Assembly (NCBI GenBank): GCA_015956445.1
Contig: WIUZ02000023.1
Location: forward strand, 372,001-436,000
Length of the DNA stretch: 64,000 nucleotides
Origin: Thelephora terrestris
Lineage: Eukaryota; Basidiomycota; Agaricomycetes; Thelephorales; Thelephoraceae
Reading direction: 5' to 3'
The notes below the pieces were generated by a model. The model made no database searches. It saw only the letters and a program-made list of their open reading frames with translations, and had not been told where the DNA came from. This document shows positions 18,624 to 58,268 of the stretch, in pieces (positions within the stretch are counted from its first letter, which is position 1; each line of letters begins with the position of its first letter). Position numbers and translations under genes: made by a program.

Positions 18624-18699
18624 CACTGGGGACAAAGGTTGGTTTGCTGATCAGGTAAACGTTGAGTAAACCGCAAGCAAATGGAAAATTAACCTAACA

Positions 18700-19410
18700 A
18701 CAAACCTAGCCAGTTTTTGCTGAGTATTTTTCAAATTTACCCAGCACGTTTGCCTACACTTTACTGACCCTGTTTTCTATCAGTTTTTCTTCAAATTTCC
18801 TTGTGGTTTACTCTATGTAGTATATCTCAAGTAATTTTAATATTTACCGGACACTTACTAACTCAGTAAACCGCGATCAAATTTGTTCGGTAAATTCAAA
18901 ACATACCCGATCACGGTTTACAGAACCCGTTTACCCAACTGGTAAATTGTGGGTTTTATCACAATTTACTGACCGGTTTGCATGGCACTTACCGGTGTCA
19001 GTTTACTTCAAGTTAAATTTCTAGTTTACTTTGTGGTTTACCCGCGAGTGACCGAACCGGTTTATTCGGAGTTTACCGAAAATTTACCGAAGCCACCGAT
19101 CACGGTTTACCGAGTCCAGTAAACCGTGGGTTTCTTTGAGGATTTACCGACGCGGTATACTCGCGGTTTACCGATTCGGCCTCTTCTGATTTTACCGTGC
19201 AGTTTACCGAGTTCAGCAAACCGCGAGTTTTTTTTAGGATTTACCGACAAGGTAAGCTCGCGGTTTACCGATTCGGCCCTTTTCGAGTTTACCGTATGGT
19301 TTACCGATTCGGTTTTTACCTCCCGTTTCTTTCAGGTTTACCTGGTTCGGTTAACCGTGAGTTAACCATTCGGTTTCTTTCTTAATTTACCGAAGTTTTA
19401 CTGACCCGGG
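18700..19410. repeat. Subterminal motif array, left end
   Basis: By eye about 29 copies of a TTTAC core (often GGTTTACCG, some inverted as CGGTAAACC) in roughly 700 bp directly inside the terminus. CACTA elements of plants carry comparable subterminal repeats bound by the TnpA accessory protein. Similar role is inferred here. Confidence 0.85.
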
Positions 19411-22400
19411 AAACCACCAGCATATCGCAACAGGATCTCGACATCCAGACACATTCTTCGGGGCGACATCGTCTCCCCTATTAGGTCGCGGTCTCCATCG
19501 GTGTTGGGTGTAGCCGACGTCAGGGGTCGGTCGTGATCAACGTGGCCGTCGTACTCGCTGTCATTGTCTTTGTGGGGATCGCGCCCGGTCCAGGTACGTG
19601 TCGTGGTCTTCACGTTTTTCGTATAGTACTCGGTACTCGTATTAGCACAAAAACAATAAATATAATTTTATGCTATGGATATACGGTCCTGCGCCGACGC
19701 GCGTCGGTGGATGACACAAATGGTCAACAATACAGACGTTTTGGACTACGGAACATGTTAGAGTACAAGCTACATACATAGGAAAATGGATAGGGCTGAA
19801 AAGCGAGCCCGATGGGTGTGAGTCGACGATGGTGGAGAAGTGGGGTGTGTGGAGGTTGGTGAGGGTCGGATAGCAAAGGGACGAAGGGCTTGGACTTGAA
19901 CTTGACGGCGTCGAGGTCTGCGTCTACAAGAGGAATACCGACGGAGTTACACCGACGCTAGTCATGCGAAAAGGGGCCCTCGGACGGTAATCGTCGAGCG
20001 CGAAGTCCGTAGGAGCTGCGGCGCCGTCCTCGACCCGCAAGGGGACGGGAGCTGAGGGAGTGGTGCCAAGCAGCGCACATAAATCCCCTTGTGGTGCTGG
20101 GAAGTGGTTTATCGGCGGTCGGTTGAGCGTAGGTGAAGCGAGGCATCCATCGGGGAGGGGTTGAACTGGAGCGGGAGGAACATAGAACTCCCAAAATCGG
20201 ACGGCGATGGGAGAGACGACGGCAATGGGAAAGACGACGGCGATGGGAAAGACGAAGGCGTTGGGGAAGACGACGGCACAGAGTGAGATGATGTGGAGGA
20301 TGGAGGATGGTGTATAGGATATTAGAGGGTCGTATGATGAAGGGCTTGAAGTGGGATTCAACGGCGTCGGCGTTTGAGGTATTTGCGAAGCTGCGCCTGT
20401 GGATGACTGGAACGAACATAGGCCGTCGTTCGTCAGATCGGAGACTACCGGATATGATGTTGGAATCGTGAGGATCTTGGGGATGCTAGCATGTCTGGCT
20501 TCCTTGCGGGGGGAGGGAACGATCTTGGAGGAGTGCGGCCCCAAAATCGGACGGTGATGGGAAAGACGACGGCACAGAGTGAGATGGTGTGGATAGTGTG
20601 GAGGATAGTGTGTAGGATAATAGAGGGTTGTATGATGAAGGGCTTGAACTGGCAATCAACGGCATCGGCGTTTGAGGTGTCAAAGGGGATAACGACTGTC
20701 AGAGTGGTGCAGCCAAAAACGATGGATGACCTAACCTCTAGTAAACGACAGACCTCCTTTTGGTCGACCTCATTCATCGTCGAGTATTGTTGGCGGAGTG
20801 CCCACTAAACAAGTTACATGTGAGTGGGATCGAGATCGAGAAAAGAAATAGAAACGAAGGGCGGAGATGGGGAAGGTGCTGCATCACGGGTAAGGGACGT
20901 TCGAAAGAGACAAGCAGCTCGGACACATACCCGGTGTCGAGAGCAAGTGAGGGACCCTTCAAGTTGAAAGTGGAAGCGATTCGGTCAGCGCGAACGCCTA
21001 CACATTTTCCGGCATGGCTATTGTCGTCGACTTCCTGACGGACACCCTGCAACTCGGCAACGGACGTGAGGAGTTGGCCGCCGGTGTTTGGGCTACGGCA
21101 GCCAAACCGGAGTCGTCAAAACCAAGAGCCGGGCCTCGCTATTCACGCCAAGCGGACACAAGGTGCACACGATGGGAACCTGCGTTGTGACGTCAGTAAC
21201 GTGTCTCCGATTCAGACAGAGGGAGCACGACGAAACACAGACAAGTCGCCAGCTTGATATCGGCGAGCCGAGGACCCGTCCACTAGACTACCTCCTGAGA
21301 TCGTTGCGCGGCGATGCAGAACATTTGGCAGCAGCGCAAGATAAGGAATCCGTAAACTAAGAGTGGATGAGCATCACGACGGCGGACCTAAAAAATGTTC
21401 GAGATAGTCCCGTCCTCGAGCGTCAGGGGCGACGCGAGTAGGTGTGGATTGATAAGCTATCTCCTATGGATTCCTGGCGTAGGAAAGGTTCAGAGTAGGA
21501 TCAATCGGCCATGCAACGAGCGAACGCACCTGGACTTGTGTCGATACACGTCCACGAACTCGATTCTCGTCGCGAAGCAAGGTTAGTCGGGCAGCGGGTA
21601 GTGCGAATGGACCAGATCGCGGGCTAGATAAGCACGCAACACGTCGGGATGTGTTTGCTGTCCATGTCTTGTGGCGGAATCTGGCGTCGATGGTGGAGGA
21701 AAGAGAAAGGCGATGGGAGGGAGCGAGTCGGGTACGAGCGCAACTTGCGGGTAACGATTTTCTCACGACGACTTGTTCGTGAAGGAGGGGACGAACCTTT
21801 GATTTGTCAAAAGATGTACTTGACTATCGCGGTTCAGACAAAAGACCTAGGCGTGGTTAGAGATACGCACCAGTCAGGAGCCACAAACTTCGAGATGGAA
21901 CTCCCCATCGTACTTCCTATCGTAGCAGATCGTCAACGTTGAGAGTGCGGATGGTGACGAGGTATACGATGTTCGCAGCAGCGATGGTGGAGAGTGGAGA
22001 GGTTTGTTGTGCGTTTCGGTTGTGCGTTTTGTCCCTGCGTTATTCCCACGCTTACTCCGCCGAAACATCAATAAATAAAATTTTCGAGTGCAACGGATAT
22101 CCAAATATGGATCAAACTCCTATACGGATAGACATGGAGTACAAGAAACATCTGATCTAGGTGTCGACACACGGAGCGATAGCGATGACTCTACCAGTTG
22201 CATTGCATGGACGTACGCTACCCCACGATAAGCAAAACGATGTCCGAAAACCAGACAAAGCCAGAGCTACGCAGCGGTTGCGTGAGCTCGCACAAGCCGA
22301 GAGTAAACGCCAGATATGCACCAGGATAGCACGACGAAGGGAAGGATTGGCACGCAATGGACCCGCGATAACCCCCCGATTGAGGGTAACGTTGACGCCA

Positions 22401-22857
22401 GCGGTGCGAACAGACGCTCTCGGACGAGAGGGTGACGGCGTTGGTGATTGTCGAGTGGCCGTGCGATACCGGGATGAGTACCGACAGGACCGACGCTAGC
22501 GCGGAAGCGTTCTTGAGCTTTTGCAGAGTCCAGGAGGAGCGCCAGCACCGTCTTCGGCCCGGAAGGGGGAGGAATGGGTCGCCAGTCGCAGTGGGAGGGT
22601 GGTTTGCCACAGGAGGTTGGACCGAACGGCGTCACTGCTGACGGAAGCCTTAGGTTTCAATCAAACGAGCGGGATCGCTCACCAGCTTGAAATCGGGGGC
22701 CAATCGCCAAGGGCGAGTCGAGGCCGCTGGACTACCTCCTGGAATCGTTGCGCGGCGATGCAGAACATTTGGCAGCAGCGCAAGATAGGGGATCCGTAAA
22801 CTAAGAGCGGACGAGAATCACGGCGGACCTAAAAGATATTCGAGATAGTCCCGTCCT
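19411..22857. other. Body of the left outer arm, no recognised gene
   Basis: GC-rich sequence with many overlapping open frames on both strands, the longest a 243-codon Ser/Pro-rich minus-strand frame at 19924-20655. None shows a domain. Internal duplications are clear: 20190-20400 resembles 20540-20700, and 21265-21830 resembles the segment beginning at 22715. A GT-AG intron-like gap at about 20815-20938 on the minus strand hints at a spliced transcript, but I cannot assemble a convincing protein. Confidence 0.5.
21265..21830. repeat. Direct repeat within the arm, copy A
   Basis: About 565 bp repeated in the same orientation as copy B, which starts at about 22715, is split by the SF3B1 fragment at 22897/25091 and resumes to about 25400. 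Shared landmarks include cggcgatgcagaacatttgg, gattcctggcgtagga and gtcttgtggcggaatct. The same pair exists in the right arm. Confidence 0.85.
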
Positions 22858-22897
22858 TGAGCGTCAGGGGCAACGTGGGTAGGTGTGGATCGATAAG

Positions 22898-25090
22898 ACG
22901 AACCTTCGCGCTCTTGTTGTTGAGACGCCAGAGAATCGTGGAAACAATCTGGGTAAGATAAGGTTTGACACGAATACCTGGAGTCAAATGTGAATGGTGG
23001 ATAGATCAGGAGAAATACCACGAGCTTACCGAGAGCATTAACGACGGTTCCGAAACCGTCCAACATGACCTGGTCCTCCGTCGTCTGCTCCTGGAATGAA
23101 TAGATGATACCGTCCACGAGCTGGACCTCCAATCGCTCATTGATGTCGGAAGCGCCTAGTGAGGAGATGACCTTGGTGATTGTCTCCATAATCATCTTCC
23201 TGTACGGTTCCGCCTCGTCCTTCAGGTCGTTCACGACCCTCCCGACGATCACCGCAACGCCAGTCTTCTGCGCCAGCTCAACGGTAGTGTCAACTACCTG
23301 TCGGTAATTCCTCCTGTCCAAAGCCATCCTCCTGACCCAGAAGCTCTTAAAGAAGTCCGGGAGAATATCCTGCTTGATGTATTGAGGGCAAGGGCAGCGA
23401 TAGCCAAAGCAGTCATCGTCTTGACTTTCTGCTGTTCGTCCTGAAGACCGTGAGCGATAGTCAACAAGATTCCTGAGGTGGGGTAGGACGGCGCATCCCA
23501 TCATGATGGCGATTTGTTGGATAATCCGGACGCCAGTATGTCGAGCCTGCCAGGATTTTTTGCTCCGGCACACGGCTTTGAGGAAAGGTAGGAGAGAAGG
23601 GATACCGAGAGCAGAGGCTACAACAGAGAAGGCACGAGCTGTTGTGTTCCTAACGTACTCGTCGGCGTGGTCGATATCGGGTCGCATGGTAGAGATCATG
23701 TGGGCAAGGCCTGCAGCTTTTGAAAGGTTGGAGATAATTTCACGGCCTTCAACACGAGCGTAGGAGGCTTCGTCGATAAGGAGGGGTTCGATGACAACGA
23801 GAATTCTGTGAACGTAAGGTCGGACGAGATCGTCAAGTTTGTAAAGGACACGGTCAATGACCTTAACAAGCAAATGACGCTCCTGGTCTTCGAGAGTACG
23901 TTCCATGAGTAGAGGGAGGATCTTGTCAAAAAGAGGACCGGCTCCAAACTTTCGAGCCTTATCAGTGATCTGTCGAAGCGCGGTTTTACGGACGGGAGGG
24001 GTGCCGTTCTTGATTTTGAGAAGGAGCCGCATAATCTTGCGTTCCTTCATTTCGTAGATGGATAACTCCGTCTCGTCCTCCTCCTTGGGGATTTTGGCGA
24101 AGTATTGAGCATCCTCCGCCTTGAAAAACGCGAGGTTCCCGACACCGGGAATCTCGGTGGGGAGTTCAGGCTAGACCTGCGGCGGCTGCCATAGCAGCAG
24201 CATCGGAGCCTTCTTTAATTTCAAAACCCCCAATGGTCGTGACGGGAGTAGCCTGGAGTTTACGAGGGGCAACGGCAGGGGCATAGCCAGGTGGTGGAGC
24301 CACAATCAAGTAGCCGGAGGTCGGGAGGAGAGCGTCGAGTTCCTCGTCAGTGAGATAACAGTTATGTTTATCGTCCTGCATGAAACCAGGCGCGTTCATG
24401 ATGATTTGGACCATGGGTGTGTCGTTGGGGATTTGGTGGGGAGTCTGATCCCATCTAGAACGTTTGGGAGCATCGTTGGCATCAGTCATAGGGGCAGCAT
24501 CCCATCGGGAACGACGCTTTTTGGGAGCAGCATCGGCAGGGGGTTCGTTTTCCTCCATCTTGACATCTGTAGTTTCCCCAGCACCGTTCCCAACATCCCA
24601 TCTCCGCTTCTTCTTTCCAGAACTCGCAGCTGCAGCAGCGACCTCAACCAAGATCTTCTCAGCCTCATCAAGCTCTGCCCTGGGAGGAGTCCTGGCGAGA
24701 TCCATCTTGTCGCCACCTTCCTCTCTATCCTGCTTCTCCTTGTCCTCAATAGGTTTCCTCACCCTCGCCTCTTCTTTCTCCAACCTTTGCAACCTCATCG
24801 CGTCTTTGTAGCCTCCTTCGACCTCCGTGCCATCTTGTTGGGCGGCAAAAGCGTCAGTGCTGTCGTGAGCGGAATGGTCGAACCTCCTGAGGTGGTAATC
24901 GGATTGGCGTGCCGCGATTTGTCGTGTTTTGGCAGTTTCGGCAAAAGGGTCGATGTCGTCTTCTTCAGCGAGGTCCGCGAACTCTCGCAGGACCTCTTTC
25001 GGTGCAGTGAAAGAGTCGACGGAACGGGGAGATGAAGGAGCGGACATGGCCTCTTGTGAGTCTTGGGCGAAGAGGGTGGGTTTACTTGGT
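22898..25090 (-). pseudogene. Captured 5' fragment of the splicing factor gene SF3B1 (SF3b155)
   Basis: Minus strand starts about 45 bp before ATG 25047 (MSAPSSPRSVDSFTAPKEVL), reads the N-terminal region with RWD/SRWD-type U2AF-binding repeats and YLTDEELDALLP, then [19 protein letters not shown] and HEAT repeats ([20 protein letters not shown] in part, [20 protein letters not shown]), and ends at NNKSAKVR. The full protein is about 1,300 residues, so over half the HEAT domain is missing. A frameshift lies near 24165 (after AAAAGLA) and about 90 codons are deleted inside the HEAT region near 23400, where [10 protein letters not shown] jumps to [10 protein letters not shown]. One intact intron (gtaagctc...gactccag, about 23025-22975) remains, so the source was genomic DNA. 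Direct ATAAG copies flank it (22893-22897, 25091-25095). A functional copy must exist elsewhere. Confidence 0.9.
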
Positions 25091-25737
25091 ATAAGCCGTC
25101 TCCTATGGATTCCTGGCGTAGGAATGGTTCAGAGTAGGGTCAATCGGCCTATGCAACGAGCGAACGCACCTCGACTTGTGTCCACGAACCCGGTTCTCGT
25201 CGCAAGGTGAGGTCAGTCGGATAGTGCGGATGGACCAAATCGTGGGCTAGATAAGCAAGCAACACGTCGGGGTGTGTTTGCTGCCCATGTCTTGTGGCGG
25301 AATCTAGCGTCGATGGTGGAGGAAAGAGAAAGGCGTTCAACTTGCGGGTGACGATTTTCTCATGGCAACTCGTTCGCGAAGAAAATTTTATTCAGAAATG
25401 TACTTAAGAAACAAGTTAGAAGCTGCCATTCTCCTATGATTTCCTGGTGTGGGAATGGTTCAGAGAATTGGCCGACACAGATAATATTTTCAGCTTCAAT
25501 GGTCGTGACGTCGACGATAAGTACGACGCCGAAGATCGATACAGTCTTCGACCGCTGATCATCAATCATCGCTCCAAGCGTACCAAATTACCAATTGAGA
25601 GAGGCCAGGCGAGAGGAAGAAGCTGTGATGTGGGACGGAAACTGGGGCAATAACAAACAGCAAGACATTACAATCACAGTACTCCCAGTAGATACAGAGA
25701 CTAAGATCATACAGCCTAGGGTACAGGTACTTTAGGT

Positions 25738-26785
25738 CTATTCGCGTTTCCTGCGTTTGGGAAGACGCTGCTCTGCAGGAGTCGACCCGTCTGACCCGTC
25801 GGGGTTACGCACTTCGTTCGAGCGCCTCTTCCCTGAAGATTCTGGGGGTGACGGAACGATGGTGACAGGTCGTGCAGGTTGAGAGTGTAGTTGGTGGGTG
25901 GGCGCTGGCCCGTTGTCGTGGGCGGCGCGAATAATCTGGAAGTTGGTCAGTAAATCGCGAGCGATTTGAAGACTAAAAAACAAAACAAACATCGTCCAAC
26001 CCAATAATTGGTGTCTCGTCAGTATCCTCTACACAATGAAGGAAGGGGTGGGTTTGAGAGCCAGCAAAATTGGCGGATTGGCGTGTGAGGCGTTTGACAT
26101 CGTCTTTGAGGAGGGCCTTTTCCCTGAGAACATTCCGGTACGCGGCAAGAAGTGAACCATAGTCGTATTTCAATCGACCAAGAATCCCAGCTGTCACGTC
26201 CAAACCCGAGGAACCGCGTCGTGAGAGATCTTCAAACTGAGACTCGAGTATCCGACCCTCTTCCCTACAGACGATAACTGTGCACCAGTCAGGGGCCGGA
26301 GGCGACCCCGACTCAGGATGCTCTTGCATCAGTTTGTTGATTATTTGGTGGTATTGAGTCCTCAACTGGGCGTTCTCGGCTTCAAGTCTTGAGAGTGTAT
26401 GGTGGTTGGATGAACAATGCGCAATAGCAGTTGCAAGGGTAATCGGATGGCGCAGTGGGGCCCTAGATGATAGTGAGTTCAGGAAAAGAGGAGGGTAAGC
26501 AGAACAGACCCGAAAGAAATTGATCGCCCTGGGACCGCGGTTACGACTCCGGTACCAGTTGAAGCCGTCTGCGAGGATTGTCCGGGATACCCACCAGACA
26601 CCGTTTGGTGGAAGGGGTCGGGGACCCCGCGCAGGATTGTATGAGTGGCGTTGATGTTGGTAGCGCTGATAAAACTCAGTTGGCTCTCCCACAGGCGAAT
26701 TTCTCGCACGTTACCTGTCCGTGTCCGAATCAGTCCGGGAATATCCACAACGCTGAGTGTTCTGCGATCCGTTGTTCGACGCCAT
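25738..26785 (-). CDS. Cargo gene A1: coiled-coil protein with C-terminal nuclear-localisation-like signal
   Basis: Starts MASNNGSQNTQRCGYSRTDS at 26785, then a GT-AG intron. The second exon is open in two frames; one reads YNPARGPRPLPPNGVWW and RTILADGFNWYRSRNRGP. A further exon holds a coiled coil (LSRLEAENAQLRTQYHQIIN) and YDYGSLLAAYRNVLREKALL; after a last intron come LQIARDLLTNFQIIRAAHD and a Pro/Ser-rich tail ending in the basic PKRRKRE. I recognise no enzyme domain. The coiled coil and basic end suggest a nuclear, DNA- or protein-binding role; that is inference. Paralogue A2 lies at 38508-39413, and promoter, start codon, first intron and exon 2 are all alignable between the two. Confidence 0.55.
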
Positions 26786-27234
26786 TGTTGTTCCTTGATT
26801 GCGATCGTGAAAGGCAAGTCAGCGGCGAAGCCAAGCCAAAGAACAGGGGGACAGACGCACTTTGAATATGGAGATGGACTTGTGGGCGGAGATCCTTGAA
26901 AATTGGAGGGAGTAGACGTTGGAAGTAGAGTGGTAGAGAGGAATAGAGGAAGAGAGGGTGAAAGAAACCGCAAAGAGATCCAACACGTGAGGCAACACGC
27001 CCCCGATATGTTTTCGCGACAGACGATACTGCCGGTGCGCCGTCTGCGTACAGCGATAGGAGTAGCCCACGTACTGGTCGGTGCAACTCTCTGGATATGA
27101 CCGGACTGCCTCGGAAAAGCGAGATCTGGGTCGTCAAGTTCTGAGGTACGGTGCAGATTGATTTATTTGGAAGGGAAAAGTACAAGAAAATTTTATACAA
27201 ATGGCGCCCCAGGCATTCAAATCAGCGTCGACCC
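26786..27234. other. Upstream region of cargo gene A1, duplicated upstream of A2
   Basis: Contains segments closely matching 39414-39780, for example ggcaacacgcccccgat, so the A1/A2 duplication included the promoter. No gene seen. Confidence 0.6.
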
Positions 27235-30200
27235 CTACGATTTGATGTGCCTGATCAAAAAGAGTGCATCAGAAGTCGATGTCAAGTGGTGCAAATGGAA
27301 CGTGCCCTGACCCTGAGACTTCTTTCGTGAGTCTTCCATTAGCTGGACGTAAGAAGCCAAGCTTTCGAAGGAGACTGAGCTTTTAGTTATTGGCCTGCCT
27401 GTGGAACTGTAAGGGATGAATGAAGATACTCCCCACAAAACTCACTGGGTGGAGTCGACGCCCCATCATTCTGACTTGAGGACTGGCTGGGGAGAGGGAC
27501 AGAGAATTGGCTCGTGGCCAGAGTGGGAACCTGGTGTTGAACAGGGGTAGAGGATCGGGTTAGGACCGGAGTGGAGGATCGGTTTGAGGCCGGAGTAAAG
27601 GATCGGTTTAGAGCCGGAGTAAAGGATCGGTTTAGGGCCGGAGTGGAGGATCGGTTTATGGACGGAGTAAAGGATCGGCTCAGGCCCGTAGTGAAGACTG
27701 GAATAGAGGACTGGCTATAAACTGGAGTTGAGGAATGGCCGAATGAATGCTCCCTGGCCAAGGTGGTAGAACGTCGGTTGCGCTGGGGAAAAAGGCGGCC
27801 AACCAGACGAGGATCCCTCTTGGCAGTGCTCACACCCGTGGTACTCGTAGGCAACGTGAGATTTATAGGTTTTCCCCCCCGGAGAGGCAAGTTGTCCGCC
27901 CCAAGCTTTGTGTGGGGTAGGAGTGACTCCTGCGTAGATGGTCGGCCGTGATCTGTTTCTTCCGGGAAATTATCGCGCACTGGGTCGGGCACATAGGCCT
28001 GAAGGAGCTCCTCCCAGGTCGAGCGATACTCAGATTGCGTCTTCCCGTTCTGCTGAGGCCGCAATTGGAGTGAGTAAGCAATCCGGTTGTGGAGAAAACA
28101 AAGAGCACCTCTCCTTCGTCCACATCCGCGTCTGGGTCAAAGTATGTTAACGGGCGGTGGAGAGGGCTTGAAGAACGGTGTTCCTAAAAGAGCTATCAGG
28201 CTGTATTTGAGCCAGAGACGAAAAAAGGTACCAGTCTTGGTGATCCTGGGCCCTGGGTAGGCATGCCTGGAAAGCATGACTGGGATCCTGAGGCAGTGTT
28301 ACTCTCAAAGACCTTCTGGCCTTTGCCGCGTTCTGTGGCCGTTCCCGTGATAACAGAAAGCCTGGGGTGCTTTCGTGGATTTGAGGAATCTGCTTGAGGG
28401 CTAAGAGAGCGCTTTCGAGGGGTTGATCCCACAGCTTCTTCCTCGCGGCTGAGAAAACTGGTCTGTGAGGTTGGCGCTTCAGAACCCTCGTGGAGGTTGG
28501 AAGAGCGTTTCCAGGAAGGATGACGCTGGGGCCGTTTTCCCTTGGAAACCGCAGAAGTCGAGGGAGCGGTTGAGTCCAACGATCCAGCGGGCTCATCCTA
28601 GTTAGATGTATCAGTGCTTGAGAGAGATCCGAAAAGCTACGAAAAAGCTTACGGCTATGGCATCGTAAAACCCTGCAAACAAAGCATGATTTATTGGCGT
28701 AGCTGAGAAATTCGACGCAAAGTATACAAGACGATCAGCAAGAGGAGCAGGGGACCCAGTTCGGATCATTTCCTTGGTCCACGCATAACCCTCAGTGTAG
28801 GAATCCCTCCTTAGCTGGTGGAGGGAATGCCACATTTTACTGCTGTCGTCAGAGAGTCGGGTTAACAGCGCTCCAGACGAGTGGGTGTTGTATGTAGAAA
28901 GTATGTGCTTGTAACAACGATTGGCATGACACGATTTGCAATTGATAAGGGAGAGTTCGGGAACGCGGTGGGAGGATTGAATCCGTGGCGTACATGTCCT
29001 AGAATCTCCCTGGTGACAGAAATAGGGATGAGGAGGACGAGTTAAGATTGGAGTGAGATGAACCTAAGTACGAACCGTGGTTTTTGATCGTTTGGAACAC
29101 AGAGCAATCCCCGCTCTGAATATCGAAAATTCCCCACTATGATTGATAAGCCCTAAGGGTTAGGTCACTTCTTTCCGTAGATCATAACACTTACTCGCTC
29201 AAGAGATCTTCTTCCACGTTCTCCGGTAGATCACGCAAGACTTCAATGACGTTATTCCTAAAGTCGAGGAGGTCCGATAGAGCCCCGGTCCGAGAAGGCG
29301 CCATATTGCCGCAACGACACACGCGACCATCAATGTAACAGGAAGCGCAGACGATGATCGCCGATTCATGGTTCGGTTGGTCATCCCGAATGCATGAACC
29401 TGTACAGCAAAAGACAGACCGGAAGAGCTCCCCGCCACAGAATGCACAAAATGAAGATGGGCCCAGATCAACCAGGGGCAGATTGTCATCGTCTTCGCAG
29501 TAGGTCGGCCTCACAACCTCGTCGAAGAGTCTTAGCCATTGTTGGAGAACTTGGGCCTTGTCCGATACCCATGAGGGATCACAAGCTCCGGCTGCTTGCA
29601 TATCCTTGAACGCGGAGAGGCGTCGGGAAATGGTATCGCAGACGGCCTTTTTGATGTGGTACGGTGAACCGATACATAACCTGAACAAGTAAGATGGAGA
29701 AAAGTAAAAGCTGCGGGAACAGAAGGTAACCCATACCGTTGCCTAATGATCTGGTCGTGGTAGACGAATGACTCCAAACCTTTCATCGTCACGCGTTGCC
29801 ATGAAAGGCTCGCGCTTGTTCCACAGTGAACCTTTTGAGAAAAACTTCACGAAGTTGAGAACAAGCGGAAACACCCACGGCACAACAAAACAACGTACCA
29901 CCTTGATGGGATAACAACAAGATCTCCTAGCTTCTGTTCATGAACGTAGACTGTGAAAGGGGCAGATTGCAGTTCCGCCGACGAGAGATTGCGTAATCGA
30001 ACAGTATTCGATCCATCCTTGGCGCGGAGGTGATCCCAGACATCGAGGTAGCTCCCAGCGGCGGTAATAAACCAGGATTTGGATGCGTCGGTACCACCAA
30101 TGCACAGCAGGTCGTGAACGACAGTTGCGCACGATTTATCCTGGAACGGGGTATCTGGTGCGCGTCAGTCGACCTCCTGAGGTTTCTGGTTGACAGACTC

Positions 30201-45567: not shown

Positions 45568-46253
45568 ATGACCGCCAATTCCTCGTCGGTGAGTGAATAA
45601 AAGCAAATCAACAAGGGATGCTCTGCCAGCCACTCTTTCCTTTATCTCACCAACTCAACCGTCTGATCGCCTCTGCACTATGCGCCTACGACAGAAACCA
45701 AACGGACGTACGGTGCGTAGAAACTAGTCTCGTAGAAGATTGTTCTCTCCTGACGTGCGCTCACAGAAACGCGGAAGCATCAAGGGCTACCTCTTCACGC
45801 CGTTGCTTATCCGCAGAGCCTTGATTTCTTTTGAATCCATGGTTCCTCGTAACGAGGGTTACAAGAACCCTCAGTATTTGAAGATCGAGGCTGCTTTTGC
45901 GAAGACCGTGGAGCCTGAAGACGTCCACGACTGCATGGTGTCCGTTGGCAAGGACCGGTTCCTTGTCACTGCCTATTGGGCCGGAACAGAAGATCCGAAT
46001 CCCGCGGTCGAAATGGTGTGCGGCGGATTAGAGTGGCGTGGCGAAATTGCCGTCGTTCAAGTTGGTCGAGTTGTCACGTTCTACAAGCGGGTTCGCCGTA
46101 CCACCGCAGTCAAGAAAGTCGTTGCTAAGTAAGTCGTCCACTCCCTCTCGCTCACCGACCCCCTGCCCAACCCCGTCCTTTAGATTCGTCACAGAGTTCA
46201 TGAGATGCATGGTAGTTGGGGATCCGTTCCCCACCTCTCTCGTTGCGGGCTAG
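45568..46253 (+). CDS. Cargo gene H: four-exon orphan protein
   Basis: MTANSSS joins, across three introns with good GT-AG sites, PLFPLSHQLNRLIASALCAY then DRNQTD, KRGSIKGYLFTPLLIRRALI, FESMVPRNEGYKNPQYLKIE, AFAKTVEPEDVHDCMVSVGK, YWAGTEDPNPAVEMVCGGLE, WRGEIAVVQVGRVVTFYKRV, and a last exon FVTEFMRCMVVGDPFPTSLV. All joins are in frame, giving about 170 residues. I recognise no family. The regular alternation of short strands in the second half looks like a beta-rich fold. No paralogue in the element. After the stop a 21 bp unit with gttgcgggctagggccatgg is repeated twice. Confidence 0.55.
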
Positions 46254-47233
46254 GGCCATGGTGTTGCGGGCTAGGGCCATGGTATCGAACTCGAAACACC
46301 CATGCTCTTGCAATTCCCGTTGTCGTATTTACTCTGTTTTGCGATTACTATCTCTCTGTAATAACAACTTTGGTTGTGTCGAATGTACTATTGTGGAACT
46401 CGTTGTGCATGCGAACACCTTCTCGTTAACCCGACCTGCGAGGAAATAAGAAGTCGAGTTGCAAGACTAATTATCGATATCGATATCCTTCATGCTAAAT
46501 ACTTATCTCCGGTCCGATTGAGACATCTGACGTTACGTTCAACTAGAACCGACGGTCGTTCCCAGACGGTCACGCTCTCGGATCCGCCGTGTGAGCTTTG
46601 ACCGCCGTCCGTTGTGACGAAAATTCTTCGATGTGAAGGAGCATGTGACGAGATGCACCATGACCGGAATCGGAACCACCCAGATGTCTGGGTGGTCAAC
46701 AAAATTAACAGCGCCAGCGATTTCGGTGAACGAGTAGATCCAACTACAACTGGATTATTAGCACAACAAAAGCACAACTCTTCTCTCGTTCGAATTATCT
46801 GGTCGATGTCGATCATCGATCATCTTCTCTTGGCTTATGACCCCATCCCTGCTAGGCGTAACATCCCATAACCTAGATGCGGTGAACGGCCTCTGCGCTC
46901 GACGACGTTCAGCCGTGGTGAGTGTTTTAGGAGTGTGTTCTGGATATGTCGATTTTTTGCTCATCCTAGGTAGGTGATGGATCGGCGTTTCATCTTTTAC
47001 TCCGTTTCTTTCGGGATTCCAATTTTACAATCTGCTTGAGCCAGCCCTACTTTGTGCCGGTGCCATTGAAACGACGTGGCCCCCGATGTGGCCTCATCCA
47101 ACCCCTTATAATGGACTGGATTCTGTTCATGTTCACGTCAACACAGCTCGCGTCTCGAAACTCGCCTTCCTCTTATCCCCTCCCTACTCTTACCACACCT
47201 ACTCTTACCACACCTACTCTTACCACACCTCCT
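46254..47233. other. No recognised gene
   Basis: About 980 bp between gene H and the accessory gene, presumably including the promoter for the transposition genes. Short frames on both strands are unsupported. A small 14 bp tandem repeat (tcttaccacaccta) occurs at 47188-47230; an alternative accessory-gene start at 47111 would translate it as LTTPTLTTPTLTTP. Confidence 0.4.
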
Positions 47234-49298
47234 ATGTCCTTCAGCGCAATGAACTCAATGATTCCCGAGGGCTCAAATCAGGGATCTCGGTTCAACGTCT
47301 CTAATGTGAGCAGTCAGCTCTTACCTCTCGCTCGATTTTTTTTTCACTCCTTGTTTAGGTAAACGGTACGGATGACCCACAGAATGTAAGGCGCTCTTGT
47401 GCTGCCCCGTGACCGATTGATGCTCAGTCATCTTGCAGCGCTCTCATTGGATACCCCTTCATTCTGAGGACGGAGCTATCACCCTCTATCTCGATCAACA
47501 AACCCAGTGCATTTGGCGTTTAGATTCTGATGAAGAAATCGGAATCGAAGAGGACGCCGAAATAGCGGTGCAGGAAGATGCACCTCCACTGGAGGACCAC
47601 GTCATGGGCGACGGTGACAACTTATACGATGAAGATATCGAGATCGCGTCTCGCATCGCGAACGGGGTGAGTATTGACTAAAATTTCCGTTGTAGTCCTG
47701 CACCTAACCCGCACGACCCCACGCGCTCCTGCTCAGTGCAACACAACCAGCGCAAATGATAACAACGCACAAGCTTACGCCCCCGCCAACTCGCTCCGTG
47801 ATACTACGCGCCCCGACGGTCCAAGTCGAACACAGGGTCAGAATTCGACCCCGTCCCTGTCTCGTGGACCTTCAATTGAGCCTGACCCCAACCGGAGAGT
47901 CTCTCAATTCACCGCTGCTCAAAAGGGTAAAGGACACGTTGCCTTAGGTGTTAGTGACGAGGAGATGGACGACCTCGACGACGCGGGTGGCGTGGCTCCG
48001 ACGCCTCAAGTTGAAGTGAGTTTTGGTTGGTTGCCCTTGTTGAGGCGTCGCTCATGTATAACCTTGCACACTCAGGACCGTCCAGCAACAGTTAAGGATA
48101 TAATTCACCTTGGCGAAGTGATTCAACGCGGCCAGCAGCAGATGGCCCATTATATTGTCGAGGGGCTTCGTCCGAATCACACAAACACACGATCAAATGC
48201 CAATGCTGACCGCGATACCGGCGACGATGGAGATATTGAGGACGAGGGTGAATGGGACGGCGAGCGTACGGGAAGGGAACGACGTAGGAAGGCTCGCAAA
48301 CCTTGGGAAAATACTCTTTCGGTATGTTCCCATCTGCCTACTTCCACTTGCATCTTCCTACCAGTTGTTCAGGAGAGGATCCGGGACCATCTGAAGGATC
48401 TGACGAAAGGGCGCACTGCTACCGATGCAGATATAACGTACTTTGACCCCACCTTTGGACCGTGCTGCGACGTTGAGGACTTTCGGTTACACCTCGCAGG
48501 GACGCCTTGCAATCTCTGGAACAAATCAGCAACTGAGGTTTTCATGGAAAGTTTCCTCGAGAAGTATAAGCTTGATTACCCTCCAGAGTACGACGGGGTG
48601 GTCCGCATGGTCGGGTTCAAAGTCCATTCGACGATCGCCGCTCTCATCAAGAGGTATCGCAGTACAGGACCGGACGGGACCGTTGACCCAGAAACGAGGA
48701 AGCAGCAGAACCGTCAAGAGAGGAAGAGGAAGGTGCGTTCATATTCCCCAATATCTCGGCTCCGGGATCGTGGCTTATTCATGTTCTAGCTCTTCCATCG
48801 TCGCCACAACATGACTTGGTTCTACCCACTTCTTCAAAATCAGCGACCGTTACTGGAAGAGCTCGGTCCTGATGGCATGTCCAGTGACGAGGAAAGAACG
48901 GTAGGAGCGACCAGGGAGTACGACATATTTGTCCCCGCCTGGAGAGCCCCCGTCGTCACTGCATGGCTTCGTGTCTTTGATATCCTCTACGTGAGGGCAA
49001 GACGCGATGGAGTATTCAAAGACCACCGTGGCTCATATCCTCGCACTCGGGTGATCGAAGAAAACGCCCAGGTTTCGACTTCCATCAAGTTTGTCTCGGG
49101 GCTTCCGCTCAATGCCTATAACGAGGACTGGCTGCGCAGGCGAGTCAACGTCACTAATAGCGTTCGTCCCCGTCCCCCGGTGGAGTACTACCATGACCCT
49201 AGGGTTATTGAGTGAGTGAGACCCCCCAATTCAATCCGAGATACCCTCTAATATGTATGAACAGATTGGCACACCAGACTGCACGGCCATCCCATTAA
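47234..49298 (+). CDS. CACTA accessory protein (TnpA-like candidate)
   Basis: Likely start MSFSAMNSMIPEGSNQG at 47234. Exons read RSHWIPLHSEDGAITLYLDQ, DEDIEIASRIANG, a Thr/Pro-rich part, RRVSQFTAAQKGKGHVALGV, TVKDIIHLGEVIQRGQQQMA, ERIRDHLKDLTKGRTATDAD, FMESFLEKYKLDYPPEYDGV, WFYPLLQNQRPLLEELGPDG then MSSDEERT, AWRAPVVTAWLRVFDILYVR, and FVSGLPLNAYNEDWLRRRVN; the end is HDPRVIE plus LAHQTARPSH. The MSSDEE and SGLPxNAY blocks are characteristic of the protein encoded next to TNP2 transposases in basidiomycetes. By analogy with plant TnpA it may bind the subterminal motifs; this is inferred. All introns have GT-AG ends, so it looks intact. Confidence 0.72.
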
Positions 49299-49528
49299 CG
49301 AGAAGGGGCACTGTTTCGTCGAAATTAACTGCATCTGTGTTTCCCCTCCTTTTTTCTTTTTTTGTATTATGCTCTCTGAAGTTTATGAACCTCTGTAATT
49401 TCCTTTAACAAATTAATAAAAAACCGATCTCGTCGTCGAAAAAAAATAAAGGAACCCCCTTTTTTGTACCCTCATCGATCAAATCATCCATCGTCTCACT
49501 GTCGCCCAACGCTCACCCTCCCCCCGGT

Positions 49529-52500
49529 ATGAAAAAACTGGTGCGATGCGTTTGCAAATCGCACTGCCGTCCGTTCAATCCCGACACTCTCTCCTTCGAA
49601 GGCGACGGAGCTCTGGTTCACAAGTCCACCGCCTATAACCACCGGCTCGATGATCAGATGGCAGAAAGTCTGGATACCTTCGCTGGGAATGTCGCCGCTA
49701 GGGTCCTCGGACCCCCTCCCCCCATAGATTTGTCAGATCCCGAACTAGTGGAGGGTGTCTCGGATGAAGAAACTCTCCTCGAAATGGAGCTCGCGTACCG
49801 GTGCTCATGGACGCCAACTGAGCAAGCTCTCATTTTCGTTTCCACCCCTTCTCCCCATTGCAAGTACCAATTTCCTTCCATCAATGAGCTCCACCTTTGC
49901 AATCGTGGAACTTATGCCCTGAAACCCGGTCACCGTGCGAATGAAGTGTATCTGGAGAACGAAAGTAGGCTCTGCGAAATACTGATTCGTCTGCGGGAGC
50001 TTCCGTCCACGGGAACACGGGAGTTGGAACCCAAGGTTCAAGAGGGCTTGCTTCGGATGCGAAGACATAAGGAGGTCGAATGGAATAAACAACGAACATA
50101 TTCTATTGCCCGACAGAACGGCTATACGGTCGTTGATGCAAGTACGTCCTCCCCCATATCTTGCGCTGCTTCCCTGAGTGTTAACTATCACTTCACTAAG
50201 GTCCTTACTTCTGCGCGTCACTGCCTACCGATCCAATCCTTTCGGCTTCTTTGCTCACAATTCTCCTTCTCCACCTGTTTTTCCGAACATCAAGACGAGC
50301 AACTACAGTCATGATCGCTGGTATTCACTGCGTCTTGTTGGCCTCGCAAGTATCCAAACAAATACTCAACCAACTTCCCAAGGACCCCAGGACCATCGTG
50401 CACAAGTTGGACTTGGACCCCCGAACCACCTCCTATCTACAATGCCCCGCTTGCTACGCACTCTACTCGTATCCAGGAACGGGAAGTTTCATCCGCTCTG
50501 ATGATCAAATCCAGCATTGCACCCACCGCCCAACACCAGAAAGCAATCCCTGTGGCTCGCCCTTATGGAGGGAGCGTAGGATTGGCAACGAGACGGTGAA
50601 GACTCCCTGCCGGAAATACGTTCATCAAAGCTTAAAGGAATGGGTGGCTCGACTTCTTTCCAGACCCGGAGTTGAGGAGGTCCTTGACGCTGCTACCAAC
50701 TCTCCCACCTCGGATCAAATTTCAGACGTATGGGGCTCCCCTGTCTTCAGGGGGTTTCTTGACAAGGACAAGACCCGTTTCTTCGCAAAACACGGGAACG
50801 ATGCACGCTTTGCATTCAGTCTCGGTGCAGATAGCTTTCACCCTCTGGGATCTCTGGAGGCCAAACAGGTTCTGTCAGCGACAGCGATCTTCATGGTGCT
50901 TCTTAATTTCCCCAAGGACCAGCGGTTCAAGTATAAGAACATGTACCTCGTCGGCGTTATTCCTGGACCTGCAAAACCCTCCTTGGACCAGATCAACCAC
51001 GCTCTGGCACTATTGGTCAAGGAGCTTTTGGAATTTTGGGAAGGAATCTACTTCACGCGTACCGCTCGGTACCGCAACGGACGCTTCGCCAAAGGAGCGA
51101 TGATTCCGCTTGTATGTGACATGCTTGCGGCACGGCAGGTGGCAGGATTTGGGAGTGTCACTTCAATGTTCTTCTGCACGTTCTGCCTGTTAACAATCCA
51201 GGACATCGAAAATTTGCAGAAAGAAACGTGGCCGGAGCGGACGATTTATCACCACCTGGAGTGCGCTCGATCGTGGAAGCGATGTAGGAGCGAGCGGGAC
51301 CGTGAACGCCTCTTCCGATTGCACGGAATCCGTTGGTCAGCCTTATTGGACCTTCCGTACTGGAATCCGGTTTTATTCACCGTCCTCGACTCGATGCACG
51401 CCGCCTTTCTGGGACTCTTTCAAACTCATTGTCGCAAGGTCTGGGGAATTGATGTCTCGGTCGAAGGAGGCGACGGAACCTTGCTTCATCCGAAGAAAGT
51501 TGTCCCTCGTCCGTCCGATTCCACATTGAGGGACTGTCTCCTCCTGGTTCGCGCAAATCCTCCTTCCCTTCTAGAGCAACTCACAGCAGCAAATATGCCC
51601 AAGAACGTGCTCTGGCATGTTTGTGCTGACCATGGATTGCGTCACGCAGGAGCGAAGCGTGCACTCGCAAAGGGGATCGTGGAATGGGTGAGCCCGTCGT
51701 GACTGTTTCCCCACCCTCCAATTGATATGTTATCAGAGGTCTCGAATCCCCCCGGAGCAGGTCATCCTCCCTGACGAAGCCGAAGATATGGACGTAGACT
51801 CAGTCAACCCTCCAGGAGATGCCGCAGATTCTAACAATTTCCGCCAGAAGGTCCTCACTGCAGAAAAGACTTTCCTCGAATATGGCGATGGACAGTCTTT
51901 CCCTCGGCGATATAACAAGGAGGTTTTTCGAAAACTATGTGAAGATCGTGGGCTGGACGCTCAGGGACGAAAGAAGGAATTGTACGCGCGGCTTCTAGCT
52001 TGGGTGTGTCATTGCTCTCCTGTTTACTCGAGGAGTTGGCTTAATCACGACCAGCGCGATTCCTTCCATCCTCGTGAGCAAGTGGAACAACAAGCCCGAC
52101 CAATCGGACAATCCAGGGACGTCCTTGGGAAGGATGTCCTCCAGGAAGTCTGGGAAGACATGAAACATACCGAGCTGCCGTCATGGATGAGTCCCGCCCC
52201 ACCAAATTGGGGAACCGCCGCCCGTGGCAAACTTACTGCAGACCAGTGGATGGTTGTCTGCACGGTCCATCTACCTATCACGCTCATCAGGATTTGGGGG
52301 CATTTGGAAGACCGACGCTTCTCCCTCCTCTGCAACTTCATGGACCTCACTTCCTCTGTTCAACTTTCTGATCAACGTGTCATCAATGAGCACATCATCG
52401 CAGACTCCGAAGTATTGATGTCTCGGTATCTCAACACGATGAAGGTCTTGTTCAAAGATGCAAAGATTCAACCAATCCATCACGCCGCTCTTCATGCCGG

Positions 52501-53438
52501 CGACTTCCTTCGACTCTTTGGACCCAACCATTCTGTGCGGGCGTTTGGAGGGGAGAGATATCTTGAGGTCCTGGGGCTACAAAATGTAAACAACAAGTCA
52601 GGTTTGTCGTGTCCCCCACACGTTGCATCTCACAGAAGCTGAAGCTACTTCAGGGGAGTTAGAGACGACGTTCATGGTGTCTGTTTGCCGAAGCTCGAAC
52701 CTCCAGGCGTTGTTAGATCGTCAGGATCTACCCTCAGAAGTTCAGCCTTTGCGATCTGCTTACGAGGCGGTGGCGAATGAAGACCATAGGGGAACCCGAC
52801 TTGCGGATGAATCCCATCACCCACGGACACGTCCGCCATCATCACTGGTATTAAGGAACGAAGTGTATCAACTCCTGCTTTCTGCCCTTGATCGGAAGTT
52901 CAATACCACCGCGTATACCCGGAACTGGTCTCCTGTACCAAGAGAAGTGCAGGAGCTCTCTAAACTTTCCATTCGAGGCGTCGTTTTTGCTACCACCAAA
53001 TCATTTCCCCGAGACAGTAACGTTCTGTTCCTAAGCCAGGGTGGAAGTTCACGTCCGCGCGTTGGCAACATAGAATCTATCTTCCAGTTCAAGCTCCAGG
53101 ACCGAGAAAGCACGATGACTTATCTTCTTGTGCAGCAGCACTCACCACTGGCCAACGAAATCATGCAAAGAGTTTACACTCAGTTCGGGTTCGCTGGTGG
53201 CTTCCTGTGTCACATTGGCGAACCGATCGGATCTCATCTCATCGAGCCGGCCGATATTATCTGTCACTTCGCAAAGACCCCACTCCCGAATTGCGATGGG
53301 GTCATGCATGTCTTACCGCTGAACAAGGTGAGGGACATACCCATGCCGTAAGAACACAACTAAACCCACAACAAGATGATGGAATCTTACGAACTCCCCT
53401 CTGCAACGGCGCAGGATCGGGGAGGTGACATCAACTAG
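49529..53438 (+). CDS. TNP2-type CACTA transposase
   Basis: Start MKKLVRCVCKSHCRPFNPD at 49529. A zinc-ribbon-like region reads CPACYALY, CTHRPTPESNPCG. The DDE-type core (Transposase_21 family) shows FSLGADSFHPLG (Asp at 50830), NMYLVGVIPGPAKPSLDQIN, KGAMIPLVCDMLAARQVAGF (Asp at 51118), FCTFCLLTIQDIENL, LPYWNPVLFTVLDSMHAAFL (Asp at 51388). After an intron, VFRKLCEDRGLDAQGRKKEL resembles a SAP DNA-binding motif; then TADQWMVVCTVHLPITLIRI and KIQPIHHAALHAGDFLRLFG. A 34 bp intron-like gap (52601-52634) restores frame into EATSGELETTFMVSVCRSSN, and a last intron adds MMESYELPSATAQDRGGDIN. No internal stop was found once introns are removed, so it could be active. It moves the element by cut-and-paste, making 3 bp duplications. 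Confidence 0.9.
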
Positions 53439-53589: not shown

Positions 53590-56500
53590 TTCAATTGGTA
53601 ATTTGGTACGCTTGGCTACGACTAGCGATGATTGATGATCAGCGGTCGAAGACTTACATTTCTGAATAAAAATTTCTTCACGAACGAGTTGTCGTGAGAA
53701 AATCGTGACCCGCATTGAAGTTGCGCTCGTACCCAACTTCCTCCCTCCCAACGCCTTTCTCTTTCCTCCACCATCGACGCCAGATTCCGCCACAAGACAT
53801 GGGCAGCAAACACATCCCGACGTGTTGCGTGCTTATCTAGCCCGCGATTTGGTCCATCCGCACTACCCGACTGACCTCACCTCGCGACGAGAACCGGATT
53901 CGTGGACACAAGTCGAGGTGCGTTCGCTCGTTGCATAGGCCGATTGACCCTACTCTGAACCATTCCTACGCCAGGAATCCATAGGAGACGGCTTATCGAT
54001 CCACACCTACCCGCGTTGCCCCTGACGCTCGAGGACGGGACTATCTCGAATATCTTTTAGGTCCGCCGTGATTCTCGTCCGCTCTTAGTTTACGGATCCC
54101 CTATCTTGCGCTGCTGCCAAATGTTCTGCATCGCCGCGCAACGATTCCAGGAGGTAGTCCAGCGGCCTCGACTCGCCCTTGGCGATTGGCCCCCGATTTC
54201 AAGCTGGTGAGCGATCCCGCTCGTTTGATTGAAACCTAAGGCTTCCGTCAGCAGTGACGCCGTTCGGTCCAACCTCCTGTGGCAAACCACCCTCCCACTG
54301 CGACTGGCGACCCATTCCTCCCCCTTCCGGGCCGAAGACGGTGCTGGCGCTCCTCCTGGACTCTGCAAAAGCTCAAGAACGCTTCCGCGCTAGCGTCGGT
54401 CCTGTCGGTACTCATCCCGGTATCGCACGGCCACTCGACAATCACCAACGCCGTCACCCTCTCGTCCGAGAGCGTCTGTTCGCACCGCTGGCGTCAACGT
54501 TACCCTCAATCGGGGGGTTATCGCGGGTCCATTGCGTGCCAATCCTTCCCTTCGTCGTGCTATCCTGGTGCATATCTGGCGTTTACTCTCGGCTTGTGCG
54601 AGCTCACGCAACCGCTGCGTAGCTCTGGCTTTGTCTGGTTTTCGGACATCGTTTTGCTTATCGTGGGGTAGCGTACGTCCATGCAATGCAACTGGTAGAG
54701 TCATCGCTATCGCTCCGTGTGTCGACACCTAGATCAGATGTTTCTTGTACTCCATGTCTATCCGTATAGGAGTTTGATCCATATTTGGATATCCGTTGCA
54801 CTCGAAAATTTTATTTATTGATGTTTCGGCGGAGTAAGCGTGGGAATAACGCAGGGACAAAACGCACAACCGAAACGCACAACAAACCTCTCCACTCTCC
54901 ACCATCGCTGCTGCGAACATCGTATACCTCGTCACCATCCGCACTCTCAACGTTGACGATCTGCTACGATAGGAAGTACGATGGGGAGTTCCATCTCGAA
55001 GTTTGTGGCTCCTGACTGGTGCGTATCTCTAACCACGCCTAGGTCTTTTGTCTGAACCGCGATAGTCAAGTACATCTTTTGACAAATCAAAGGTTCGTCC
55101 CCTCCTTCACGAACAAGTCGTCGTGAGAAAATCGTTACCCGCAAGTTGCGCTCGTACCCGACTCGCTCCCTCCCATCGCCTTTCTCTTTCCTCCACCATC
55201 GACGCCAGATTCCGCCACAAGACATGGACAGCAAACACATCCCGACGTGTTGCGTGCTTATCTAGCCCGCGATCTGGTCCATTCGCACTACCCGCTGCCC
55301 GACTAACCTTGCTTCGCGACGAGAATCGAGTTCGTGGACGTGTATCGACACAAGTCCAGGTGCGTTCGCTCGTTGCATGGCCGATTGATCCTACTCTGAA
55401 CCTTTCCTACGCCAGGAATCCATAGGAGATAGCTTATCAATCCACACCTACTCGCGTCGCCCCTGACGCTCGAGGACGGGACTATCTCGAACATTTTTTA
55501 GGTCCGCCGTCGTGATGCTCATCCACTCTTAGTTTACGGATTCCTTATCTTGCGCTGCTGCCAAATGTTCTGCATCGCCGCGCAACGATCTCAGGAGGTA
55601 GTCTAGTGGACGGGTCCTCGGCTCGCCGATATCAAGCTGGCGACTTGTCTGTGTTTCGTCGTGCTCCCTCTGTCTGAATCGGAGACACGTTACTGACGTC
55701 ACAACGCAGGTTCCCATCGTGTGCACCTTGTGTCCGCTTGGCGTGAATAGCGAGGCCCGGCTCTTGGTTTTGACGACTCCGGTTTGGCTGCCGTAGCCCA
55801 AACACCGGCGGCCAACTCCTCACGTCCGTTGCCGAGTTGCAGGGTGTCCGTCAGGAAGTCGACGACAATAGCCATGCCGGAAAATGTGTAGGCGTTCGCG
55901 CTGACCGAATCGCTTCCACTTTCAACTTGAAGGGTCCCTCACTTGCTCTCGACACCGGGTATGTGTCCGAGCTGCTTGTCTCTTTCGAACGTCCCTTACC
56001 CGTGATGCAGCACCTTCCCCATCTCCGCCCTTCGTTTCTATTTCTTTTCTCGATCTCGATCCCACTCACATGTAACTTGTTTAGTGGGCACTCCGCCAAC
56101 AATACTCGACGATGAATGAGGTCGACCAAAAGGAGGTCTGTCGTTTACTAGAGGTTAGGTCATCCATCGTTTTTGGCTGCACCACTCTGACAGTCGTTAT
56201 CCCCTTTGACACCTCAAACGCCGATGCCGTTGATTGCCAGTTCAAGCCCTTCATCATACAACCCTCTATTATCCTACACACTATCCTCCACACTATCCAC
56301 ACCATCTCACTCTGTGCCGTCGTCTTTCCCATCACCGTCCGATTTTGGGGCCGCACTCCTCCAAGATCGTTCCCTCCCCCCGCAAGGAAGCCAGACATGC
56401 TAGCATCCCCAAGATCCTCACGATTCCAACATCATATCCGGTAGTCTCCGATCTGACGAACGACGGCCTATGTTCGTTCCAGTCATCCACAGGCGCAGCT

Positions 56501-58265
56501 TCGCAAATACCTCAAACGCCGACGCCGTTGAATCCCACTTCAAGCCCTTCATCATACGACCCTCTAATATCCTATACACCATCCTCCATCCTCCACATCA
56601 TCTCACTCTGTGCCGTCGTCTTCCCCAACGCCTTCGTCTTTCCCATCGCCGTCGTCTTTCCCATTGCCGTCGTCTCTCCCATCGCCGTCCGATTTTGGGA
56701 GTTCTATGTTCCTCCCGCTCCAGTTCAACCCCTCCCCGATGGATGCCTCGCTTCACCTACGCTCAACCGACCGCCGATAAACCACTTCCCAGCACCACAA
56801 GGGGATTTATGTGCGCTGCTTGGCACCACTCCCTCAGCTCCCGTCCCCTTGCGGGTCGAGGACGGCGCCGCAGCTCCTACGGACTTCGCGCTCGACGATT
56901 ACCGTCCGAGGGCCCCTTTTCGCATGACTAGCGTCGGTGTAACTCCGTCGGTATTCCTCTTGTAGACGCAGACCTCGACGCCGTCAAGTTCAAGTCCAAG
57001 CCCTTCGTCCCTTTGCTATCCGACCCTCACCAACCTCCACACACCCCACTTCTCCACCATCGTCGACTCACACCCATCGGGCTCGCTTTTCAGCCCTATC
57101 CATTTTCCTATGTATGTAGCTTGTACTCTAACATGTTCCGTAGTCCAAAACGTCTGTATTGTTGACCATTTGTGTCATCCACCGACGCGCGTCGGCGCAG
57201 GACCGTATATCCATAGCATAAAATTATATTTATTGTTTTTGTGCTAATACGAGTACCGAGTACTATACGAAAAACGTGAAGACCACGACACGTACCTGGA
57301 CCGGGCGCGATCCCCACAAAGACAATGACAGCGAGTACGACGGCCACGTTGATCACGACCGACCCCTGACGTCGGCTACACCCAACACCGATGGAGACCG
57401 CGACCTAATAGGGGAGACGATGTCGCCCCGAAGAATGTGTCTGGATGTCGAGATCCTGTTGCGATATGCTGGTGGTTTCCCGGGTCAGTAAAACTTCGGT
57501 AAATTAAGAAAGAAACCGAATGGTTAACTCACGGTTAACCGAACCAGGTAAACCTGAAAGAAACGGGAGGTAAAAACCGAATCGGTAAACCATACGGTAA
57601 ACTCGAAAAGGGCCGAATCGGTAAACCGCGAGCTTACCTTGTCGGTAAATCCTAAAAAAAACTCGCGGTTTGCTGAACTCGGTAAACTGCACGGTAAAAT
57701 CAGAAGAGGCCGAATCGGTAAACCGCGAGTATACCGCGTCGGTAAATCCTCAAAGAAACCCACGGTTTACTGGACTCGGTAAACCGTGATCGGTGGCTTC
57801 GGTAAATTTTCGGTAAACTCCGAATAAACCGGTTCGGTCACTCGCGGGTAAACCACAAAGTAAACTAGAAATTTAACTTGAAGTAAACTGACACCGGTAA
57901 GTGCCATGCAAACCGGTCAGTAAATTGTGATAAAACCCACAATTTACCAGTTGGGTAAACGGGTTCTGTAAACCGTGATCGGGTATGTTTTGAATTTACC
58001 GAACAAATTTGATCGCGGTTTACTGAGTTAGTAAGTGTCCGGTAAATATTAAAATTACTTGAGATATACTACATAGAGTAAACCACAAGGAAATTTGAAG
58101 AAAAACTGATAGAAAACAGGGTCAGTAAAGTGTAGGCAAACGTGCTGGGTAAATTTGAAAAATACTCAGCAAAAACTGGCTAGGTTTGTTGTTAGGTTAA
58201 TTTTCCATTTGCTTGCGGTTTACTCAACGTTTACCTGATCAGCAAACCAACCTTTGTCCCCAGTG
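53590..58265. repeat. Right inverted arm of the giant CACTA element
   Basis: Reverse complement of 18624-25600 without the SF3B1 fragment. Positions 54032-58265 mirror 18624-22857 exactly as far as I compared; inward of that the two arms differ mostly by C/T and G/A transitions. The uninterrupted site corresponding to the SF3B1 insertion is at 53991-53996 (gcttat). The arm begins about 150 bp after the transposase stop. Confidence 0.93.
57479..58189. repeat. Subterminal motif array, right end
   Basis: Mirror image of 18700-19410; the same CGGTAAACC/GGTTTACCG motifs in both orientations, about 29 by eye. Confidence 0.85.
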
Positions 58266-58268
58266 TGA

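Follow-up and report, generated by a model that had tools for sequence, protein, structure and literature searches.

A giant, apparently autonomous CACTA/EnSpm transposon with cargo genes, mapped by an internal empty site in the basidiomycete Thelephora terrestris

CACTA elements, which occur widely among plants and fungi, have mostly been described as small. The element considered here (18624–58265, no strand assigned) lies in a 64,000-nucleotide stretch of the Thelephora terrestris genome (assembly GCA_015956445.1, contig WIUZ02000023.1, positions 372,001 to 436,000 of the forward strand), referred to below as the window, in whose numbering all coordinates are given. Judging from its sequence, these 39,642 bp are in all likelihood one CACTA/EnSpm transposon, giant and apparently autonomous, which moved as a single 39.6-kb unit.

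Among described elements, CNIRT6 of Cryptococcus neoformans is reported as a proven mobile CACTA of about 7.5 kb with 24-bp terminal inverted repeats (TIRs), CACTG ends and 3-bp duplications (PMC12810828). The Thelephora element shares with it TIRs starting with CACTG, 3-bp duplications, a CACTA-type transposase and a basidiomycete host, but it differs in being 39.6 kb long, in having arms of more than 4 kb and in carrying many other genes. Fungal EnSpm elements with a TET/JBP gene, as presented in PMC12730594, are similar in their CAC...GTG ends, their 3-bp duplications and the presence of an extra gene beside the transposase, whereas no TET/JBP family was found here in Pfam scans of all 12 reading-frame stretches over 22.8–52.8 kb (E up to 0.01; the arms lie outside this range), hereafter the interior scans. 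CACTA elements expanded by extra open reading frames (ORFs) are also described from the red alga Chondrus, although at 16–20 kb and with 4–5 ORFs (PMC6431247); these are the largest that we found in the open-licence literature, where we recognised no fungal CACTA of the present size, which does not by itself establish that none is in print. Plant CACTA and Pack-CACTA elements resemble the Thelephora element in containing non-functional host gene fragments, but the Pack-type elements described there are non-autonomous, whereas this one has its own transposase (a stop-free tnp2 model) and has the fragment in a terminal arm (PMC8978399, PMC13317346). What is new here is the size, the kilobase-long arms, the cargo and the SF3B1 fragment that splits one arm; the CACTA class itself is known.

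Large gene-carrying fungal elements do exist in the form of Starships, which range from 41,942 to 605,797 bp in Tremella and use a tyrosine-recombinase captain (PMC13066641). The first-pass annotation had compared the element with Starships, and this holds as an analogy only: no tyrosine-recombinase family appeared in the interior scans, and with CACTA ends and tnp2 in place of a captain, Starship identity was rejected. Membership of the KDZ group (Zisupton, Kyakuja, Dileera) was rejected as well, given a duplication of 3 bp rather than 8 bp and no KDZ family in the interior scans, and Helitron identity was considered and likewise discarded. The features that are present, namely CACTG-type inverted termini, a 3-bp duplication, a tnp2-type transposase and dense subterminal repeats, are those of CACTA/EnSpm.

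The element begins with CACTGGGG and ends with CCCCAGTG; the left end at 18624 reads CACTGGGGACAAAGG and the right end at 58265 is the reverse complement of CACTGGGGACAAAGG. Within the window, CACTGGGG occurs only at 10757, 11250, 18624, 42539 and 58258. The trinucleotide TGA stands on both sides, at 18621–18623 and 58266–58268 (no strand assigned to either), as a 3-bp target-site duplication in the single insertion examined. Outside it lies a long interspersed element (LINE) on the minus strand, with its 3′ part and tail at 17812–18623 (a run of 34 T on the plus strand, 17812–17845) and its RNase H, reverse transcriptase and endonuclease regions at 58269–62781. When the element and one TGA are removed in silico, a continuous 748-aa minus-strand ORF is restored across the junction (KHKD joined to FTRKTRDFMW), which is the RNase H-bearing C-terminal part of the LINE; endonuclease and reverse transcriptase lie in 59884–62781. 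The first reading of an insertion within a LINE coding run was therefore correct. That reading had also taken TIRs, TGA and LINE frame together as fixing the ends, and here the ends and the TGA stand, but the frame alone cannot assign one or two copies of TGA to the LINE because the duplication is 3 bp long; the insertion claim stands on the TGA found beside both CACTG...CAGTG termini. Remains of a Helitron (PIF1 helicase and Helitron_like_N) lie next to the LINE on the minus strand at 14865–17909, and the LINE may sit in this Helitron, and the CACTA element in the LINE, since the LINE tail ends close to the start of the Helitron_like_N match.

Inside these ends run two long inverted arms, 18623–22900 and 53989–58266, which are 31 kb apart and 99.93% identical over 4,278 nt. 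All three mismatches fall within the innermost 43 nt of the repeat: two lie in the last 40 nt of the left arm (22858 and 22876), and the third, 22898, is already within an inserted SF3B1 fragment. Outward of 22858 there is none, and comparison in eight successive 500-nt blocks returned zero mismatches. The outer part of the left arm is thus 18624–22897 (plus strand; the inverted repeat of 53992–58265, with mismatches only at 22858 and 22876) and that of the right arm 53989–58265 (minus strand). The two arms continue beyond this point, as the left arm resumes past the insert at 25091–25408 (plus strand) and aligns to the inner part of the right arm at 53656–53988 (minus strand); over 25091–25408 and 53656–53996, 12 of 311 aligned positions are mismatched (4%) and there are 2 gaps, and a fainter, gapped likeness reaches further inward beyond 25408. 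On the evidence of these alignments, the original arm is about 4.6 kb or more in length, and a decayed SF3B1 fragment now interrupts the left one, so that the long inverted arms of the first reading are indeed present, with the left arm longer than first read.

The outermost parts of the arms carry a further signature. Each of the 28 TTTACCG copies in the window falls within the outermost 800 bp of an arm, 14 in the left subterminal zone (18624–19420, plus strand), where 13 share one orientation, and 14 in its mirror image on the right (57470–58265, minus strand), oriented 13:1 likewise. Plant CACTA elements are described as having subterminal repeats of this kind, and their ends are bound by the transposase (PMC8978399).

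The insert in the left arm, 22898–25090 on the minus strand, was recognised by PDB and Pfam matches, by tblastn and by its junctions. An ORF at 22821–24170 (minus strand) matches SF3B1 (PDB chain 6en4_C, positions 9–237 and 344–473) with an E-value of 1e-174, and a second at 24169–25128 (minus strand) matches the N-terminal part weakly and, in addition, Pfam SF3b1 at 4.8e-23. A further exon, 22978–22898, follows a kept intron (GTAAGC...CAG), and the fragment ends at 22898. Because the intron is kept, the copy derives from DNA and not from mRNA; it is damaged by a frameshift and a deletion. Arm sequence lies on both sides, and the 5-bp duplication ATAAG flanks the insert at 22893–22897 and 25091–25095; the terminal arm has thus taken in 2.19 kb of a host gene. 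The simplest reading of the near-identical outer arms would be recent arm-to-arm conversion, blocked by the SF3B1 heterology. Merging of the arms by an assembler would also yield identity in the outer part, yet each arm enters distinct inner sequence.

The gene for the tnp2 transposase lies at 49529–53438 (plus strand) and is modelled with six exons and 1,216 aa without internal stop. Pfam Transposase_21 (tnp2) matches it at 35.1 bits against a cut-off of 28.6, over profile positions 23–155 of 213. The C-terminal half holds an SAP-like stretch, which scores 23.8 bits on the full model, just below the cut-off of 23.9, and just above it in a scan of the single ORF. The model also holds a CxxC, a candidate for the C(2)C motif that accompanies the DDE triad and H(3-4)H in CACTA transposases; a single-sequence fold prediction of the core gave a mean pLDDT of 35.6. 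Upstream of the transposase gene is a putative accessory gene (47111–49398, plus strand; seven exons, 642 aa, no Pfam family), to parts of which a small relic at 33517–34203 (minus strand) is similar (33517–33627 against the 47111–49398 protein, E 2e-7). The claim that the element has its own TNP2 transposase and accessory gene was thereby borne out. A tblastn search with all models gave no second transposase copy in the window except for a weak 26% match to the C-terminal part in the left arm piece, which contains a stop and has an E-value of 0.015 and was taken as chance. Searches of other collections found no relatives of the transposase core in viral contigs or phages, of the LINE protein in viral contigs, or of the 24-nt end sequence in viral contigs, while none of 41 pattern matches to the transposase C-terminal part in prokaryote genome contigs and none of 11 to one cargo protein in viral contigs was confirmed; these misses say little because the collections are non-fungal.

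The families found in the interior scans were SF3b1, tnp2 and SAP, and otherwise only those of WD40 type; no further transposon family was among them. Rfam and tRNA searches of the window gave no match. A simple gene finder, in the run used (trained without LINE codons and with lower penalties), proposed 22 models with a score above 2.5 and a start in the range 18–58.3 kb, of which several are spurious (antisense to SF3B1 and transposase, and two in the arms), one is the LINE and two are halves of the transposase; a run trained with LINE codons called little besides SF3B1 in the interior. The estimate of about a dozen other genes was a fair count, although several of these are paralogous pairs or relics. 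Between 25.7 and 47 kb there are nine stop-to-stop ORFs of at least 180 aa, whereas 50 resamplings with the same dinucleotide make-up averaged 1.4 and never exceeded 4; the excess is real and moderate.

Individual cargo genes include one on the minus strand at 28849–30725, in two models that are possibly one gene, with a cysteine-rich C-terminal part and a weak likeness to JmjC (20.4 bits in one model and 12.5 in a hand-joined model, cut-off 24), for which nothing convincing was found in PDB and the name is tentative. A WD40 repeat is better supported in a plus-strand gene at 40000–41400 (44.0 bits, cut-off 27), whose exons past 40625 were placed by eye. A minus-strand gene at 42853–43805 (278-aa model) combines a coiled coil with a RING-like finger below the cut-off, and its tandem paralogue at 41796–42526 (minus strand) has RING above it. 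The remaining sub-threshold Pfam matches were disregarded, among them those of other ORFs and chance matches between the coiled coil and unrelated families. Further cargo genes lie at 37119–38073 (plus strand) and, as its inverted paralogue, 44380–45220 (minus strand), at 35125–36384 with a paralogue at 32012–32766 (both minus strand), and at 45618–46253 (plus strand; a model of 173 aa with no family), and a gene or relic at 38508–39758 (minus strand) has a paralogous stretch at 26495–27092. Within the element, genes or relics form five pairs, at 37/44 kb (inverted), 42/43, 32/35, 26/39 and 33/48 kb. Six alignments of duplicated cargo were analysed by the NG86 method: one has a ratio of 0.17, four have saturated dS with the third codon position changed most, and the remaining alignment (26/39 kb) comes to 0.70, while the values for three presumably non-coding controls were 1.18, 1.81 and 0.59. 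In five of six alignments (dS 1.3 or saturated) the pattern fits purifying selection, and most pairs would therefore have evolved as protein-coding genes and not be recent copies. The regions upstream of the 37/44 kb paralogues (36915–37153 and 45186–45421) are in places more alike than the coding part, with all 37 of 37 codons in one frame aligned at 95%, which may reflect a shared promoter or conversion.

How such an element came to its present size can be envisioned in more than one way. A CACTA of normal size could have hit the LINE and then swelled in place through segmental insertions and duplications, so that the 39.6 kb never moved together. The internal paralogous pairs and the gene-fragment insert do indicate that the element acquires DNA and duplicates it, and only one copy is known, but the interior scans returned no inserted transposon family, the cargo paralogues are old and the inner arms have diverged by 4%, whereas the LINE appears little changed. 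Its two ORFs share one frame, with 1 stop (TGA) in 1,715 codons against 3.9 or 7.8 expected, depending on how the divergence splits between the arms (P 0.10 or 0.004), and its 5.1 kb are free of frameshifts, compared with 2 gaps in 311 inner-arm positions. The LINE is therefore probably younger than the divergence of the inner arms, a comparison that, short of proof, favours an element already large on landing; we consider growth in place unlikely. Several points nevertheless weigh against the preferred reading as a whole: a single copy is seen in the 64-kb window, part of the interior has no clear coding signal, the support for the JmjC, RING and accessory labels is weak, the ratio of 0.70 at 26/39 kb has to be set beside a non-coding control that reached 0.59, and the LINE dating is weak on stops alone, with P at 0.10 under one assumption and 0.004 under the other.

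Inverted arms can also arise from mis-joined reads, and the identity of the outer arms over more than 4 kb, together with a second near-perfect palindrome nearby (11802–14997), speaks for such an artefact. However, the outer ends each abut one half of a single LINE ORF, with TGA at both junctions, and the arms enter different inner sequence and differ there, so that we regard this explanation as very improbable. Even less credence is due to a composite transposon, in which two complete inverse CACTA copies moved the intervening DNA: kilobase-long inverted arms around unrelated genes would suit it, but CACTGGGG termini do not occur at the inner borders of the arms and the only transposase lies outside them. 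A single 39.6-kb CACTA element with transposase, accessory gene and cargo is the reading in which ends, TGA, LINE closure, subterminal repeats and transposase profile agree, and the original call of a CACTA element with cargo, mapped by its empty site, is upheld.

The neighbourhood contains other elements as well. A 501-bp CACTA-type element at 10757–11257 has CACTGGGGGCAGGG termini, 133-nt inverted ends (95%) and TTC on both sides; it was rejected as a deletion copy of the giant element because the sequence behind the first 8 terminal bases, the only ones in common, differs. The palindrome at 11802–14997 is a 3.2-kb foldback in which identical central arms of 668 nt enclose a 39-nt loop, and it has TTAGG-type arrays at 12457–12716 and 14099–14342 and, by eye, a possible 7-bp duplication TCCACTC at its ends. 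A mitochondrial carrier gene at 3982–4821 (minus strand) is probably an ordinary host gene.

For the giant element, a working model can be proposed in which the mirrored TTTACCG arrays are the binding sites of the transposase, which may act together with the accessory protein; it would bring the two ends together, cut them and insert them into the target with a 3-bp stagger. Conversion between the arms, or else gap repair, would maintain their identity. The SF3B1 fragment would be a genomic DNA copy that entered the left arm at a break, leaving the 5-bp duplication, and would now be the heterology at which conversion halts. Most of the other cargo would consist of resident families, duplicated within the element and long evolving as protein-coding genes, and may serve the element (for example, against silencing) rather than the host. 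Tentatively, and with some doubt, one may go further and envision a basidiomycete lineage of giant autonomous CACTA elements whose cargo consists of selected resident gene families. Such elements would be the counterpart of Starships among DDE transposases, with kilobase-long arms kept identical by conversion and with the ability to take up host gene DNA.

The SF3B1 insert in one arm is a natural test of how terminal repeats are maintained, as identity stops at the heterology. The findings suggest that the CACTA class, common as it is, can serve as a large cargo carrier. If a gene-rich autonomous CACTA of 39.6 kb is what the locus holds, then DDE cut-and-paste transposition moves tens of kilobases in nature, and such an element could shuttle genes as Starships do.

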